A stretch of DNA of 64,000 nt. Source: Flavobacteriales bacterium (lineage in GTDB: Bacteria; Bacteroidota; Bacteroidia; UBA10329). The stretch covers positions 62,001-126,000 of the forward strand of contig JAIPBM010000010.1 of NCBI GenBank assembly GCA_021739695.1, given 5' to 3'. Both the position numbers and the translations under genes were made by a program. Below, in pieces: positions 10,533-61,993 of this stretch (position 1 is the stretch's first letter; every line of letters begins with the position of its first letter). The notes below the pieces were generated by a model. It did no database searches. It was not told the DNA's origin and saw only the letters and a list, made by a program, of their open reading frames with translations.

Positions 10533-10884
10533 TCTGTACCGTTTCTCCTAAATACCAAGTATAATGCACAGTCTTACCTACCGACTTGTCTGCAAGAGAG
10601 TAAATCCGATAGTTTAAAAAAAGTCTTCGTCCTTTTACCGTACCCAATTCTAAGGGCAGTGTATTTCCAATCCCGAGTGCTTCTTCAAAGTTTGTAAATT
10701 CTAATGTCATTTCATTTTCTTGACTGATTTCAGCACGGACTTGGTGGGCCTTCTGGTGCGAATCAATTTTAAACTTGAATACAATTCGTATTTTTTCGGT
10801 AATGTGAAAAGTGATTGGGTCAATACCATAACTGATGATTGTTCCGCTTTCAAAAATTTCAAGGTCTCCAGTTGTTATTCTCAT
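10525..10884 (-). CDS. Small soluble protein, partner of the membrane protein downstream
   Basis: 119 residues without signal peptide or membrane segment. The pattern is alternating polar/hydrophobic and looks like a beta-sandwich (TFHITEKIRIVFKFKI, then MTLEFTNFEEALGIGNT and RRLFLNYRIYSL). No catalytic motif is visible and I do not recognise the family. It overlaps the downstream two-pass membrane protein by 8 bp, so the pair forms a bicistronic unit reading toward the minisatellite. A sensor or ligand-binding domain paired with a membrane partner would fit, but this is a guess. Confidence 0.7.
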   Translation of the reverse strand: MRITTGDLEIFESGTIISYGIDPITFHITEKIRIVFKFKIDSHQKAHQVRAEISQENEMTLEFTNFEEALGIGNTLPLELGTVKGRRLFLNYRIYSLADKSVGKTVHYTWYLGETVQNG

Positions 10885-45139: not shown

Positions 45140-45826
45140 CTATTCATATTGCGCTAAAAAATCTTTCACTTTCGGATTAGCAGCTAAATCAAAAGCCGTT
45201 TTACCGTCATGATTTTTAATATCGGTTCGTGCTCCATGAGTGATTAGAAATTGTAGAATGGATACAAGTTCAACTGACGTTTCTTGCGACTTGCATTTGG
45301 AATGAAGCATCAGCAAAGTATTGCCATCATCGTCTTGCCAGTTAAAGTCATACCCTGCTTTAACAAGTTGGGTATAGCGTTTAAAAGTGTCACTAACAAA
45401 TCTATCCAAGCATTCACGTGCTTCAATCGAAACATGACATCCATGATTAACCATTAATTCAATCAGTTCGCTGTCCCCAGTTGCCACGAAACTCTCCAAC
45501 ATGTCATTCTTAGTGGTTTGGGGAATATCGTATTTCAAATAGTATACTATCATTTCATAGGACCTTGACGAGGATACCATGTTATGGAGTTCCAGCCAAA
45601 ATCCAAGACTCTTACCTACCCTCGTATCATAGCATTTCCAACCGGGGTCACCGCCATTTTCAAGGTGGCTTTTAAGCACTTCAATACTCCCGGATTCGAT
45701 TTGCAACATCGTTTTTTTGTCCTCTCTACTACAACTACAGCAAACAGTGTTTAAAACAAGCTCACAACCGCTCAGGCAAATTAAGCAGGCCACTAGGATT
45801 AGAATGAATTTACCACGAAGTATCAT
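45140..45826 (-). CDS. Ankyrin-repeat lipoprotein
   Basis: 228 residues from the ATG at 45824-45826, which overlaps the upstream stop (ATGA). The lipoprotein signal ends in LSGC (about residue 20); several more cysteines follow (CCSC). The remainder contains four to five ankyrin-like repeats (SGSIEVLKSHLENGGDP, TGDSELIELMVNHGCHV, DDDGNTLLMLHSKC, VSILQFLITHGARTDIKNHD). Ankyrin lipoproteins next to toxic effectors often serve as immunity proteins, and the adjacent HET-C-like gene would be the obvious partner; this is inference from context. Confidence 0.8.
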   Translation of the reverse strand: MILRGKFILILVACLICLSGCELVLNTVCCSCSREDKKTMLQIESGSIEVLKSHLENGGDPGWKCYDTRVGKSLGFWLELHNMVSSSRSYEMIVYYLKYDIPQTTKNDMLESFVATGDSELIELMVNHGCHVSIEARECLDRFVSDTFKRYTQLVKAGYDFNWQDDDGNTLLMLHSKCKSQETSVELVSILQFLITHGARTDIKNHDGKTAFDLAANPKVKDFLAQYE

Positions 45827-47868
45827 TGCCCGAATATTTTCACATCGTCCCACCAATCTGAGATGCCCTTCCAACTCTTGTTAAAATACTTATTCAAATC
45901 TTCGTACAACTCAATTGTTCTGTTGTAATAGTGCTCAGTTCTTGTTGCTGTTTCAGAATTTGCGATGGCATCGGGATTCGCCTTTGCCCATTCAGCAACC
46001 ATGCTATCCATCCAATCAACCTCGGATGGGTGTGCAAAATACTTTGTTTCAGCAAGAGTGCACAGTTCTTCAGCGTTAAACTGCTTCGTCTCCCAAATAG
46101 ATTTCATCACAATGCCAACTTCTCTTACCGCTTCAATTGCCAGCAAGCCTGCCAGCGGATTAAGTCTGTGATCCGGTTCATCCTTCGCAACTTGAGTATG
46201 CGTTGGATCTGTACCGAAATCTACCACCCCCTGAATTTCTTTGATTGCTTCAGGAGAAACGGGCTTGGCAATCATCATGATTAAACCATTAAATGGTATG
46301 GCCACATTCTCTCCCGTATTGTGCATCACCTCGAAAGTCTTTTCTAATTCATCGTCTACTTCACCATCCTCTGCTGATTCTATAACGTCATCTCTCAGAT
46401 TCAGATACTGCATCAGCATGTCTTTGGCCTTGCCAGGTTCAAACGGTACATCAGCAATTCTGGCCGACAGTGGCCGATCGTCACCCTCATCTGGGGAAAT
46501 TATATCCCAAATTCTACCAACAACTCCTGAATCTTCAAGTCCTTTCTCCTTCTTATATTCCAGTTCCTTCCTTGCCAAGTCCTCAAGCACAATCTCTGCA
46601 AAACGTTCGCCAAAGGTTCTCTGACGAACTTTCATAGCTGTATATGGAGTTTTGGTAGTTGGAAAAAGCTCCTCCTCTAGTTTTGGCGCAATACTCGCTA
46701 TCGTGTCCCAAGAACCAAATGAACCTGTTACCAAAGGAATTCGTTTCGCCTTCTCCTTTCCATCAACCATATTCATAACCTCATCTGGTAGTCCTTTAAC
46801 CCACGGGAACACATTAATTGTACCTCTAATTTTTTTGCCTTCCCGATTCAAATTATCGTCTTCATTAATGCCAGATGGGCTTACCTGAGAATCTACTTTG
46901 ATTAATGCTATTTCTACGAAATTGCTATGCGCAAAGTAATCCTCAAGAACGTGAAGGGCAGCACCAAAATACCTTAATCTATCTCGCTTATTCTGTGCAT
47001 TAGCAGCTAAGAAGATTTGATCTTGAAAATATGTAAAAGAACTTGGTCTAGGGTCACGAAGCTTGGCACTCGGTTGATACTGGTCGGTATTCGCGGGATC
47101 ATCGTAGCCCTTGACAAAGGGCTTTATCTGGAAACTCTTATTGAGATTTACCTGACGTGATTTTGGATCATCCCCTGCGTACAGCTTTATATACTTAGGC
47201 TCGCCTTTTGAATTCAGATAATTGAACCCGATTGGCTCCTTCAAGCTTGTGTCTGAAAATGGCGTATGGTCAATTAGATTATCAGGGTTGTCTATGTGTT
47301 CTTCGGGTCTATAAATCCCTAGCATGTCCAAACTCAGCCTGCCGTAAGTAGCAACAAACTCATCATGGTAAGAATTGTAAGCCGGTTTAAGTCGCTGCCC
47401 CTTTTGGCGTTTTCGATTGTAAACAAATTCCTTGGCCGCCAAGAGCTCTAAAACTTTGACCCAGGTACTAACGCTTAGCTTTTGATGCATTAGTGGGATT
47501 AGATTCATCACTTCAAGAGCAGCGCGATTATCTTTTAATAACCTGTACTTACCAAGTAAAAAGTCTCTATCTACTTTTCCAAACCCTACCATGAGTGGGA
47601 CAAGTACCTGTGAATAATCTCTCAACCAATTCCCATAGTAAATCATAAATATCTCATCCTCGGAAAACACCTTCGTTAGAGCGATTGCTTCAATATCACC
47701 ATGCGCCACGGAATTCGGATACTCCTTCTTATCGACATTCCCTGCTCCAAATGGTGGAAGTGCAGCCGAAAACAAAGGTTTCCAAGCGCGCCTGCTTTTG
47801 ATGCTGCTAGCATTCAACCCAATTGAATTAAGCACAAACCCCATCATATTTTCATGGGTAACTTTCAT
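45823..47868 (-). CDS. HET-C-like protein, putative effector
   Basis: 681 residues. It carries the HET-C signature arrangement: YYGNWLRDYSQVLVPLMVG (about 73-91), then AALHVLEDYFAHSNFVEIAL (about 299-318), whose His, Asp and Glu residues resemble the metal site of zinc-dependent phospholipase C/P1-nuclease folds. HET-C was first described in fungal heterokaryon incompatibility; bacterial homologues are usually predicted to be toxins. No signal peptide is present, so export would need a secretion system or partner. Couplings of 1 bp upstream and 4 bp downstream tie it to a 165-residue protein and an ankyrin lipoprotein. Confidence 0.8.
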   Translation of the reverse strand: MKVTHENMMGFVLNSIGLNASSIKSRRAWKPLFSAALPPFGAGNVDKKEYPNSVAHGDIEAIALTKVFSEDEIFMIYYGNWLRDYSQVLVPLMVGFGKVDRDFLLGKYRLLKDNRAALEVMNLIPLMHQKLSVSTWVKVLELLAAKEFVYNRKRQKGQRLKPAYNSYHDEFVATYGRLSLDMLGIYRPEEHIDNPDNLIDHTPFSDTSLKEPIGFNYLNSKGEPKYIKLYAGDDPKSRQVNLNKSFQIKPFVKGYDDPANTDQYQPSAKLRDPRPSSFTYFQDQIFLAANAQNKRDRLRYFGAALHVLEDYFAHSNFVEIALIKVDSQVSPSGINEDDNLNREGKKIRGTINVFPWVKGLPDEVMNMVDGKEKAKRIPLVTGSFGSWDTIASIAPKLEEELFPTTKTPYTAMKVRQRTFGERFAEIVLEDLARKELEYKKEKGLEDSGVVGRIWDIISPDEGDDRPLSARIADVPFEPGKAKDMLMQYLNLRDDVIESAEDGEVDDELEKTFEVMHNTGENVAIPFNGLIMMIAKPVSPEAIKEIQGVVDFGTDPTHTQVAKDEPDHRLNPLAGLLAIEAVREVGIVMKSIWETKQFNAEELCTLAETKYFAHPSEVDWMDSMVAEWAKANPDAIANSETATRTEHYYNRTIELYEDLNKYFNKSWKGISDWWDDVKIFGQ

Positions 47869-57241: not shown

Positions 57242-58003
57242 ATGAACACCAATAATCACAATGGATTAGAAGAAAAGGGAACGAACTTCCGCTATCGGCT
57301 TTCCGTATTGATAATACTGGTTGCAACTCTTGGAATTGGGTCAGTAGCCTATCTGGCCATGTGTTGTGGTTCGGATTTAAGCGGAGATACTGTATTCACA
57401 GCAGTGATTGGGCTTGCAGGAACATGGGTGGGTACTATACTGGCCTTTTACTTCTCTAAAGACAATTTTGAGGCAGCAGAAAAAAGCACTCGGGCGATGG
57501 TGGATAAGTTCCGAACATCCACTCAAAAACTGGCATCAACACTTGCGAGCAGTGTGATGCTTAAAATTTCACAAGCGGCAGTTCTAGTGTTGAAAGACGA
57601 AGATCAATCGATCATCCTATTAACCAACATTCTTGAAAAAATGGGCGACCATTATCGATTGCCAGTGCTGGACACAAGTGGAAGGTTGCTATACATAATC
57701 CATCGCAGTATGATAGATCGTTTTTTGGCTCAGTCATTCCTTACTCAGAACAACGACAATCAGCCATATACTCTCAACACTTTGCTGTCTGATAGAACTG
57801 CTGGGGATGCTATTAGCAAAGGAATCGTTACTGTAAAACCCACAGACACACTTCATTTGGCCAAACTGAAAATGGAGCTTAAACGAGAAGATGGGGTTAT
57901 GTGCTCGGATATTTTCGTAACGGACGATGGCACCAGAAACGGCAAAGTTCTGGGGTGGATAACCAATAATGACCTGAACAAGCATTCTCATGTCGAGGGT
58001 TAG
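57242..58003 (+). CDS. Two-pass membrane protein with a CBS-like domain
   Basis: 253 residues. Two hydrophobic segments at about 20-41 and 50-71 (GLAGTWVGTILAFYFSKDNF closes the second) are followed by a short helix and a cytoplasmic part with a CBS-like pair (SIILLTNILEKMGDHYRLPVL, then a second half ending KVLGWITNNDLNK). CBS pairs bind adenine nucleotides and gate partner proteins, so this may be a membrane-bound sensor. It overlaps the next gene by 14 bases. The sensing ligand is unknown. Confidence 0.72.
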   Translation: MNTNNHNGLEEKGTNFRYRLSVLIILVATLGIGSVAYLAMCCGSDLSGDTVFTAVIGLAGTWVGTILAFYFSKDNFEAAEKSTRAMVDKFRTSTQKLASTLASSVMLKISQAAVLVLKDEDQSIILLTNILEKMGDHYRLPVLDTSGRLLYIIHRSMIDRFLAQSFLTQNNDNQPYTLNTLLSDRTAGDAISKGIVTVKPTDTLHLAKLKMELKREDGVMCSDIFVTDDGTRNGKVLGWITNNDLNKHSHVEG

Positions 58004-58853: not shown

Positions 58854-59345
58854 ATGAAAAGAGAAGAGCGTAAGCAACTCAGACAAGAAAGAAGACAGCG
58901 AATTAAAGACCGTAGGGAGGCGCGAAGAAATGAACGAAGAATAAGAAAAGAGCTTCAAAGAGGTAAATGGAATGAGGCTAAAGCAAAAATTGCCGCGTTA
59001 CCAGATATAGAAGAACTCGAACAGACAGTCTATGAAGAACGATTTGGTGAAGTGTGGCCAGCTGTAAAAGCCGTGCTAGAATTTGGTATTAGCTTAAGAG
59101 TAACCGGAGCAAAGTTCGACCAAACCCTTACCTCAATTATCGAATTGGGTGATGAAATGGCCGAGGGAGACGAGATTACGGATGAAAAATCCAAAGAACT
59201 TATTGAGAAACTTCAACAGATATGGGGGTGGATGCAGACGATTCTTACTGTCGTTAAAATCTTCACTGGAGATGAGGCCGATAAGGTCATTGATAAGATC
59301 ATTGAGATCGGTGATTGGATCTTGGACGAGGATGACAAACAGTAG
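58854..59345 (+). CDS. Basic coiled-coil plus amphipathic helix protein
   Basis: 163 residues. The first 45 are an extremely charged helix (REERKQLRQERRQRIKDRRE), and residues about 65-160 form helices, among them WGWMQTILTVVKIFTGDEAD, which could be amphipathic. No enzyme motif. It directly precedes the gasdermin-like gene by about 65 bp and could be a regulator, inhibitor or membrane-active partner; that is inference from position and composition. Confidence 0.7.
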   Translation: MKREERKQLRQERRQRIKDRREARRNERRIRKELQRGKWNEAKAKIAALPDIEELEQTVYEERFGEVWPAVKAVLEFGISLRVTGAKFDQTLTSIIELGDEMAEGDEITDEKSKELIEKLQQIWGWMQTILTVVKIFTGDEADKVIDKIIEIGDWILDEDDKQ

Positions 59346-59409: not shown

Positions 59410-60039
59410 ATGAATATCGAAAAATTCGTTGAGCGTAGACTGAAGGCCAATGTGCTCAGGTTCAGTAACGAAATGTACAGACCAGGAATCGTTATCGATG
59501 ATGACGATAATGACCGGATGATTGGTCACATAGCGGACGTATTAGGCGGTAATCCAGACATGGGTAATTGGGCTATCCGAAGCCACTCAGCCAACATACT
59601 CGTTGCGACAAAAATTTCGGGTACCAGAAAGGGAGACTTAGCTGTTCAATTTCTTCAGCTTTTCGGAGTGAATATCGCAGGAAACTTTGAACATGAAATC
59701 ACATTTCATTTAGAAAAAGTAACCTCCAAGGACCTGCAGGAAAAAGATCTCACAATTGAAATTATGTTAGACGCATTACGAGAAAAAGACATCAATAAAT
59801 GGCGCTCAATAAAGCGAGATTTTGTTGTTACGGAGACGTATTACGCGGAGGAGTTTAGCGTGAAATTTCACAGAAAAGGGGACGCCAGTGCGGAGGTAAA
59901 AGTTAAAGCCGAAGTGGATGTTGAGGCTTCAGCGAAAGTAGAGTGGGAAACAGAAGGAACTATTAGAGTCACCAACAACGGCAATGTTCCTTTCGCTGTA
60001 CGTGGGTTTGTCGTTAAAAAACCTTTAAATGACCAGTAA
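59410..60039 (+). CDS. Gasdermin-like protein (tentative), putative pore former
   Basis: 209 residues. Order of elements recalls bacterial gasdermins: an N-terminal helix followed by VLRFSNEMYRPGIVIDDD, a strand-rich part (TKISGTRKGDLAVQFLQLF, then EITFHLEKVTSKDL, about 69-110), then RDFVVTETYYAEEFSVKFHR (about 136-155), alternating residues with acidic repeats (AEVKVKAEVDVEASAKVEW) and the ending TNNGNVPFAVRGFVVK. The gasdermin N-terminal domain shows a comparable ending pattern after a VVTE strand. Two differences count against it: no N-terminal cysteine for acylation and no C-terminal autoinhibitory tail. No protease is nearby. Recognition is from pattern memory only, so treat as a hypothesis. 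Confidence 0.45.
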   Translation: MNIEKFVERRLKANVLRFSNEMYRPGIVIDDDDNDRMIGHIADVLGGNPDMGNWAIRSHSANILVATKISGTRKGDLAVQFLQLFGVNIAGNFEHEITFHLEKVTSKDLQEKDLTIEIMLDALREKDINKWRSIKRDFVVTETYYAEEFSVKFHRKGDASAEVKVKAEVDVEASAKVEWETEGTIRVTNNGNVPFAVRGFVVKKPLNDQ

Positions 60040-60041
60040 TC

Positions 60042-60833
60042 ATGTGTAACGATAAGCAGACAGGAATATGCATTGAAACCATCAATCGAAGCTTACACGA
60101 TGGAACCATGTGGGCTGCAATAGCGGGAACACTGGTGGTGATGTTTATGGATTTGGCAAATCCATTTGCTGGATCTGTTTGTAGGCAGTATGCCTATAGG
60201 CTGTTTGAAAACCTCGAACTGATTCACATGTCTGGATTTTTAAAGATTGCCACGTTTGCTGTTTTCATTTCTTTTATTGGAGCTATTACCAGTTGGGTAG
60301 AGAGTCCAAGAACCCGATCTGATGCATTTGCGCGCGGAATGTCGGTAATGGCCTTGATGTCATTAGGACCAAAGGACAGCATAGACCAGCAGCTAACAGA
60401 AGCCACCTCCTCTTTCAAGCATGAAATTCTACAATCTTATAATCAACAGCCACGCTATAGTTCGGTGTTCTCAGCTGGGCTGATTTTTCCTGGCGTACCT
60501 ATTGAATCGTCCGTTAAATCCAAACTGTCGAAACCACAAGAAACCAAGTTCAGACCCAACGCAAGTATTGAACAGAACAATTGGATTTCCGAATCAAAGC
60601 CTTCATACAGTCTTTTTTCCCTTTTCACAAATGAAATAGAAATACACAAAGTGGGCTATTCATTCAACAAGGGAGATTCCATAGAGGTAATCCGAGGAAC
60701 AGAATTTGAAACGCCTTTAAGAAAATACAGGTACGTTCAAGTTAGATACCTATCTAAGGATGGAGAGGTCATGTCAGGGTGGATTTATGCAGGCAGAGGT
60801 TCATGGCAGAACATCAAATTTCACAGCGAATAG
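60042..60833 (+). CDS. Two-pass membrane protein with a C-terminal SH3-like domain
   Basis: 263 residues. Two hydrophobic segments at about 22-42 and 64-86 are followed by a polar middle and a C-terminal small beta-barrel (about 195-260: FNKGDSIEVIRGTEFETPLR, YRYVQVRYLSKDGEVMSGWI) resembling a bacterial SH3-like domain, which often binds peptidoglycan. It begins two bases after the gasdermin-like gene, so they are likely co-expressed, and precedes the M15 peptidase gene. Holin-like help for that peptidase is conceivable (inference). Confidence 0.72.
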   Translation: MCNDKQTGICIETINRSLHDGTMWAAIAGTLVVMFMDLANPFAGSVCRQYAYRLFENLELIHMSGFLKIATFAVFISFIGAITSWVESPRTRSDAFARGMSVMALMSLGPKDSIDQQLTEATSSFKHEILQSYNQQPRYSSVFSAGLIFPGVPIESSVKSKLSKPQETKFRPNASIEQNNWISESKPSYSLFSLFTNEIEIHKVGYSFNKGDSIEVIRGTEFETPLRKYRYVQVRYLSKDGEVMSGWIYAGRGSWQNIKFHSE

Positions 60834-60865: not shown

Positions 60866-61657
60866 ATGAAATATTCAATCAAATTCATTCAATCGGAGCT
60901 GACAAAACAAGGCTATAATCCAGGTGGAATAGATGGTGTTTTAGGCCGCAACACACTCGGAGCGCTAGAAAGGATTCCAAGTTTAGCAAAGGAATGGTCG
61001 ACAGAGCGAAAACTGGTAGGATTCATTCAGCTCACTGCGCAAAAGGAAAACATTGAAGTTGGCAAGATCGATGGACTTTGGGGGCCTCAGACAAGTTATG
61101 CCTATGATTGTCTGTTAGAGTTACGAAAACATGGTGCAGTGCCCGTCTTTCGCAGGCCATGTGACGAGGTAGACGTCAACCCGAACGATTGGCCATCAGA
61201 GAAACCGCAACAGAATATCATTGATTTCTACGGTGAGGTCGGTAAAAACCAGACATCTGTTGAAGTAGCCTACCCACACATCTTGGATTGGGACAGAGAC
61301 GTATCCACTACAAAGATTACCTGCCACCAAAAAGTCGGTGATAGTTTGGTTAGAGTACTATCAAAGGTCAAAGACCATTATGGAATGGATGGAATCCATC
61401 GATTAAAACTTGACATCTGGGGAGGCGGTTTCAATGTCCGTAAGAAGCGTGGTGGTTCCGAGTACTCCATGCATAGTTGGGGTATTGCAATGGACTACGA
61501 TCCTAGCAACAACAAACTCAATTGGGGAAGCGACCGCGCATCCTTTGCCCAACCAGATTATAATAAGTGGTGGGAGTTGTGGGAAGAAGAAGGTTGGCTT
61601 AGCTTGGGAAGAGCTCGGAACTTTGATTGGATGCATGTTCAGGCTGCGAAACTTTGA
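60866..61657 (+). CDS. M15-type peptidoglycan peptidase with peptidoglycan-binding repeats
   Basis: 263 residues. Two N-terminal peptidoglycan-binding-like repeats (IQSELTKQGYNPGGIDGVLG at about 8-27, IEVGKIDGLWGPQTSYAYDC at about 58-77) precede a C-terminal M15/VanY-like zinc peptidase domain: SMHSWGIAMDYD (about 201-212; His and Asp ligands), WELWEEEGWLSLG (catalytic acidic residue) and DWMHVQ (third ligand). It lacks a signal peptide, as phage endolysins do. It would cleave stem peptides of peptidoglycan if given access to the periplasm, perhaps through a pore or holin-like neighbour. Confidence 0.82.
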   Translation: MKYSIKFIQSELTKQGYNPGGIDGVLGRNTLGALERIPSLAKEWSTERKLVGFIQLTAQKENIEVGKIDGLWGPQTSYAYDCLLELRKHGAVPVFRRPCDEVDVNPNDWPSEKPQQNIIDFYGEVGKNQTSVEVAYPHILDWDRDVSTTKITCHQKVGDSLVRVLSKVKDHYGMDGIHRLKLDIWGGGFNVRKKRGGSEYSMHSWGIAMDYDPSNNKLNWGSDRASFAQPDYNKWWELWEEEGWLSLGRARNFDWMHVQAAKL

Positions 61658-61723
61658 TATTATAGGACAGGCACAATATTTAACCCACCACCTATTCCCT
61701 ATCTTCACTCAAAATCTTGATTG

Positions 61724-61993
61724 ATGAATGTAATTTGTCTTCATGATGTGGCTTTCTTCTCGCTAGTAGAAGAGGTTGTGGACCGCATCAAAGAAAAGCG
61801 GAGCATCGAGCACAACCGTTGGATTCTTCCCAATGAAGCCATGTCGGTGCTCGGAATCAAAAGTAAGACCACCCTCCAGAAGCTTCGGGACGAGGGAAAA
61901 ATCCGATTCTCCCAACCTCAGAAGAAGGTAATCCTCTATGATCGAGAATCCCTCCTAAAGTATTTAGACACCCATTCAAAAGACGTGTTCTAA
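61724..61993 (+). CDS. Small helix-turn-helix protein (excisionase-like)
   Basis: 89 residues from ATG 61724. The C-terminal half, ILPNEAMSVLGIKSKTTLQK, LRDEGKIRFSQPQKKVILYD and RESLLKYLD, is the HTH_17/MerR-like fold used by excisionases and DNA-binding accessory proteins in Bacteroidota mobile elements. Such proteins often accompany integrative islands. Its stop codon shares a base with the next start. Confidence 0.85.
   Translation: MNVICLHDVAFFSLVEEVVDRIKEKRSIEHNRWILPNEAMSVLGIKSKTTLQKLRDEGKIRFSQPQKKVILYDRESLLKYLDTHSKDVF

Follow-up and report, generated by a model that had tools for sequence, protein, structure and literature searches.

The DNA analysed here, referred to as the window, is a stretch of 64,000 nucleotides from the genome of a Flavobacteriales bacterium. 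The features discussed below are collected in Table 1. The central one is an intact open reading frame that is preceded by an A-rich leader, starts with ATG, ends with TAA and very probably encodes a divergent homologue of the bacterial gasdermins (bGSDMs). Its translation confirms the length of 209 residues and the lack of cysteines given in a preliminary description of this DNA. The gene is present as a single copy in the 4.24 Mb genome and only 2 bp separate its stop codon from the start of the gene for a membrane protein, which is followed after 32 bp by an endolysin gene. All three genes are located on one strand.

Table 1. Features of the gasdermin locus and related loci; positions refer to the window unless a locus (L) is named.
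Feature	Position	Strand	Basis or remark
Het-C domain protein	45823-47868	-	PF07217, E 4.3e-30
253-aa protein, two TM segments and CBS domains	57242..58003	+	PF00571, E 8.9e-9; hydropathy
276-aa protein, N-terminal TM segment	57990..58820	+	relatives exist without gasdermin
163-aa charged helical protein	58854..59345	+	orthologue in G399, L037 9887-10384
Short protein of pore-domain length, very probable gasdermin homologue	59410..60039	+	209 aa; free of Cys and of an inhibitory tail
263-aa membrane protein	60042..60833	+	hydropathy; no family match
Endolysin, peptidoglycan-binding domain and M15 peptidase	60866..61657	+	phrog_17001; motifs
HTH_17 (excisionase-like) protein	61721..61993	+	PF12728, E 5.5e-8; phrog_66, E 1.4e-4
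CHAT protein	window-equivalent 65477-67609; L015 14478-16610	-	5.4 kb downstream of the gasdermin gene
Fragment like the 3' half of tRNA-Leu in G399	L037, about 10600-10670		immediately behind the island genes that G399 and the window share
Flavobacterial-type bGSDMs of G053 and G057	L029 9161-9862; L030 9462-10163		above NF051890 cut-off
Tail-less 242-aa proteins of G277 and G095	L016 9326-10054; L048 9467-10195		beside hemB-like gene (by eye)
306-aa gasdermin-like protein of G080	L031 9100-10020	+	NF051890, E 2.8e-6; PADLOC, E 1.2e-4

The assignment as a gasdermin homologue is based primarily on two profile libraries. The PADLOC profile bGSDM matches residues 11-196 with an E-value of 2.4e-11 (positions 13-207 of 257 in the profile), and the NCBIfam profile NF051890 (prok_gasdermin) matches residues 14-195 with an E-value of 8.4e-9 (positions 7-199 of 203). 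NF051890 defines an equivalog with a membership cut-off of 100 bits, and the 35.5 bits reached here fall far short of this curated value; the protein is thus a divergent homologue outside the equivalog. As controls, the sequence was reversed once and shuffled three times, and none of these versions matched the bGSDM profile. When the PDB was searched by sequence, bGSDMs ranked first, with a weak E-value of 0.12, and no close relatives of the protein were found in phages, plasmids, viral contigs and genome contigs. Pfam matches to SH3_12 (E 0.08) and Trypco2 (E 0.28) were dismissed as noise. A match in genome G259 (L003), which sits inside an open reading frame that by eye resembles a P-type ATPase, was also dismissed.

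Two AlphaFold models were obtained with mean pLDDT values of 31 (the first, unusable) and 37.5 (the better one). These very low values result from the shallow alignments that could be made; the input alignment of the better model included two sequences found with the bGSDM profile. Foldseek placed gasdermin structures on ranks 1-7 for the better model (E 1.7e-5 to 3e-3), with RCD-1 pores among the matches, and a bacterial gasdermin at the top for the poorer model (E 0.09). VIA-align gave gasdermins Z-scores of 5-7, and both unrelated folds and further pore formers are interspersed among them. Long paired strands are modelled at low confidence (the pLDDT 37.5 model) where the pore hairpins would lie. 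A BFVD search was uninformative: most of the matches were maturation proteins of leviviruses, and none was named as a gasdermin. The comparison of structures proposed in the preliminary description therefore ranks gasdermins first in Foldseek with both models, but with the low pLDDT values given above and TM-scores of only 0.29-0.37 for the top five gasdermin matches. It is consistent with a gasdermin fold and falls short of proof.

A search profile (A2) consisting of the protein and three other gasdermin-like proteins revealed a 211-residue homologue (L047) in genome G452, which belongs to a different order-level lineage of the same class. Both proteins align end to end with 27-28% identity and 83 bits, and L047 likewise lacks cysteines and a tail. 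The likeness to bacterial gasdermins claimed previously is therefore borne out by the matches in both profile libraries and by a homologue of the same size in another lineage; the fold comparison adds weak support. The conserved core proline is followed by 15 residues in the window protein and by 12-15 across the two proteins, as compared to 28 residues in the flavobacterial-type bGSDMs of G053 and G057. By this comparison the window protein has no tail of inhibitory length, and none of the three frames beyond its stop codon continues a gasdermin, in agreement with the earlier statement that a C-terminal inhibitory peptide is missing. Premature truncation of a longer gasdermin was rejected, given the lack of a coding continuation downstream and the same-length homologue. 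As L047 is tail-less, cysteine-free and of the same size in another lineage, shortness is a trait of the subfamily, which in the strict sense comprises the two members found, with full context known for one. The contig of L047 is only 5 kb long and no endolysin was seen on it; the product of the adjoining gene has a two-TM hairpin (by hydropathy) and by eye looks unrelated in sequence to the window membrane protein.

An N-terminal cysteine for palmitoylation is present in most bGSDMs. Its absence from the window protein, to which the preliminary description had drawn attention, is real but not unusual, because the proteins of G053 and G057 exceed the NF051890 cut-off and are also free of cysteines, with no protease next door (by eye). 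A third, more distant tail-less group of 242-residue proteins occupies a conserved chromosomal spot in two genomes of one genus (G277, G095). The surroundings of these hemB-linked genes are no evident defence island, and their link to gasdermins is weaker (E 0.017 with the bGSDM profile). A profile-profile search, which had also been proposed, connected the two-sequence family with this group at a suggestive probability of 61.5%, but was uninformative for the flavobacterial bGSDMs (0.1%).

The membrane protein encoded downstream has two hydrophobic stretches close to its N-terminus, of which one is clear and the other weaker, and a C-terminal domain that appears SH3b-like by eye only. Pfam and phrog profile searches provided no match to a holin family, an absence that is compatible with a holin, and the protein is possibly a holin-like or anchoring partner of the gasdermin. 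The endolysin matches phrog_17001 with an E-value of 7.6e-87 and is related to annotated phage endolysins (tblastn). Its M15 motifs SxHSWGIAxD and WMH are conserved and intact, and hydropathy analysis revealed no hydrophobic signal segment. In viral contigs, neither this endolysin nor the membrane protein was found. The HTH_17 protein further downstream could either mark a mobile element or act as a regulator. A second copy of the endolysin gene is present on contig C34 of the same genome (L017 7075-10348), with no gasdermin there and accompanied by homologues of the 508-aa and 144-aa proteins of the window. Holin/endolysin cassettes also serve tailocin release. At L018, L019, L020 and L021, relatives of the window endolysin are found beside DUF4157-like (eCIS-associated) proteins (by eye), which suggests that they are lysis genes of contractile injection systems.

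On the upstream side, the CBS-domain protein is a possible sensor, with a putative tie to the gasdermin. In G399, a 94% complete genome of the same genus, the upstream genes are kept at about 88-89% DNA identity through the helical gene, the orthologue of which is 89% identical (DNA), and the similarity to the window ends at the end of this gene. Protein and profile searches detected no gasdermin in the G399 genome, and neither the endolysin nor the membrane protein was found at its island, the latter having been searched for within that island. The preliminary description had considered control of the gasdermin by the adjacent helical protein. Because the helical gene persists in G399 without a gasdermin, it is unlikely to encode a dedicated controller, and the protein probably belongs to the upstream module. 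The three genes from the gasdermin to the endolysin resemble an insertion of their own, although only a single island was compared and loss of the three genes in G399 is a possible alternative. The tRNA-Leu-like fragment of G399 is a likely integration site; a search for it in the genome of the window gave no match. The same island region of the window also encodes a Het-C domain protein, the name of which derives from fungal heterokaryon incompatibility.

Apart from the peptidoglycan-cutting M15 endolysin, no protease is encoded next to the gasdermin gene within the window. To this extent the reported lack of a neighbouring protease holds, but a CHAT-domain (caspase-like) protein of 710 residues (E 1.5e-21) is encoded just outside the window. 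Motifs with His and Cys and, at the N-terminus, a probable signal peptide were recognised by eye. Its gene is followed by a DNA methyltransferase-like and then by a replication-initiator-like gene (by eye), and the three genes together suggest a mobile element. In G080, a 306-residue gasdermin-like protein with a lipoprotein-type signal sequence is encoded directly 3' of a secreted protein without a Pfam match that by eye resembles a cysteine protease, and the two are possibly an exported gasdermin with its protease.

Bacterial gasdermins are kept inactive by a C-terminal peptide of ~20 residues, which is removed by a neighbouring protease (PMC9612521, PMC10989679). Endolysin-like genes occur near some of them, and this arrangement has been likened to holin-endolysin pairs (PMC9612521). 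Starting from what the sequence shows (homology to gasdermins, neither tail nor cysteine, the order of the genes and an endolysin with intact motifs), we infer pore formation, a mode of control, cooperation with the endolysin and a biological purpose as follows. The favoured reading, at about even odds, is that the protein provides the pore in a lysis cassette of the holin/endolysin type that does not depend on proteolysis. The cassette would consist, in this order, of a gasdermin reduced to its pore-forming domain, the membrane protein and the endolysin. As there is no inhibitory tail to remove, restraint would be exerted by non-expression or by the adjoining membrane protein instead of a protease. 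Once produced, the gasdermin would open the inner membrane by ring pores; the endolysin, which has no hydrophobic signal and thus needs a hole to get to the wall, could then pass through and cause lysis. Lysis might serve to abort phage infection or to release cell contents.

The tight spacing of the three genes on one strand, the location of the tail-less L047 beside a gene for a two-TM-hairpin protein, and the G399 island, which lacks all three genes and retains the upstream ones, support such a cassette. Counting against it are the NF051890 score below the cut-off, the very low pLDDT of the models, the membrane protein without a holin-family match, the CHAT protein 5.4 kb away and the fact that the difference in G399 stems from a single comparison at a single island. 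In addition, only two members of the strict subfamily were found and no endolysin is visible on the short contig of L047, so that a single locus carries the evidence for linkage of the three genes, and any expression of a gasdermin without a tail might be toxic. The more general proposal, that gasdermins consisting of the pore domain alone form a subfamily that acts as the protease-free holin of a dedicated endolysin cassette and is controlled by expression or a small membrane partner, is put forward tentatively.

Several other readings have to be weighed against this cassette. A likeness to gasdermins that is due to chance, or only to a common beta-hairpin pattern, would agree with the low confidence of the structure models, with the similar VIA-align scores that unrelated folds reach in some cases, with the weak match of L047 to the bGSDM profile and with the failure of a two-sequence profile (the window protein and L047) to retrieve gasdermins from the PDB. 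It is nevertheless highly improbable, given the E-values in two libraries over ~185 residues in order and the negative reversed and shuffled controls. The protein could also have a gasdermin fold and be past pore formation, either decayed or repurposed. Its low similarity to canonical members, the sub-threshold NF051890 score, the N-terminal stretch missing from the alignment and the absence of tail and cysteine point in this direction. However, the reading frame is intact, long paired strands are modelled, at low confidence, at the would-be pore hairpins, and both core and ending are conserved in L047, the other homologue of full length, which indicates that the tail-less form is maintained. 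We consider a loss of activity unlikely.

The remaining readings concern activation. In fungi, RCD-1 is devoid of an inhibitory domain, and killing requires the encounter of two alleles (PMC11760362). By analogy, the tail-less gasdermin could be activated by binding another protein, for which the membrane protein encoded next to it and, as a sensor, the CBS-domain protein are candidates, and the endolysin would then be unrelated cargo of a mobile island. The missing inhibitory domain, the RCD-1 pores among the Foldseek matches, the membrane protein gene 2 bp downstream and the presence of the CBS-domain gene upstream favor this idea. It appears rather unlikely, because a search for a second, partner gasdermin in the genome matched the gene itself only, which leaves no gasdermin pair, and because the two-TM neighbor of L047 looks unrelated to the window membrane protein. 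A conventional protease switch would have to rely on the distant CHAT protein. Caspase-like proteases, including CHAT proteases, are known partners of bacterial gasdermins (PMC9612521), and both the domain match and the His/Cys motifs are in line with such a role. Yet its gene is 5.4 kb away on the opposite strand, the probable signal peptide makes export likely, and the gasdermin has no tail to cut off, so that activation by this protein is very unlikely.

In comparison with the bGSDMs of Runella, Bradyrhizobium, Vitiosangium and Lysobacter, the window protein has a homologous pore-forming domain with its elements in the same order, but is shorter and lacks the C-terminal peptide, the palmitoylation cysteine and an adjacent protease gene. 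It shares the absence of cysteines and of a protease next door (by eye) with the stand-alone bGSDMs of G053 and G057, which extend about 13 residues further at the C-terminus and pass the NF051890 cut-off. The fungal RCD-1-1 and RCD-1-2 are likewise gasdermin pore domains without an inhibitory C-terminal domain, and their activation is known to be cleavage-free; they are a pair of related alleles (257 and 244 aa), in contrast to the single gasdermin found here. A natural gasdermin that consists of the pore domain only would, if confirmed, represent another control route for large bacterial pores, in parallel to the cleavage-free fungal gasdermins. Holin-endolysin cassettes also release Tc toxins and eCIS particles (PMC10847046, PMC12961389). 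As in phage holin/endolysin cassettes, a signal-less endolysin directly follows membrane-active proteins, which are putative in this case; different from these cassettes, the hole is proposed to be made by a gasdermin homologue rather than a known holin, and no spanins were identified. The location directly before an endolysin gene provides a compact test case for the suggestion that bacterial gasdermins imitate phage holins (PMC9612521).
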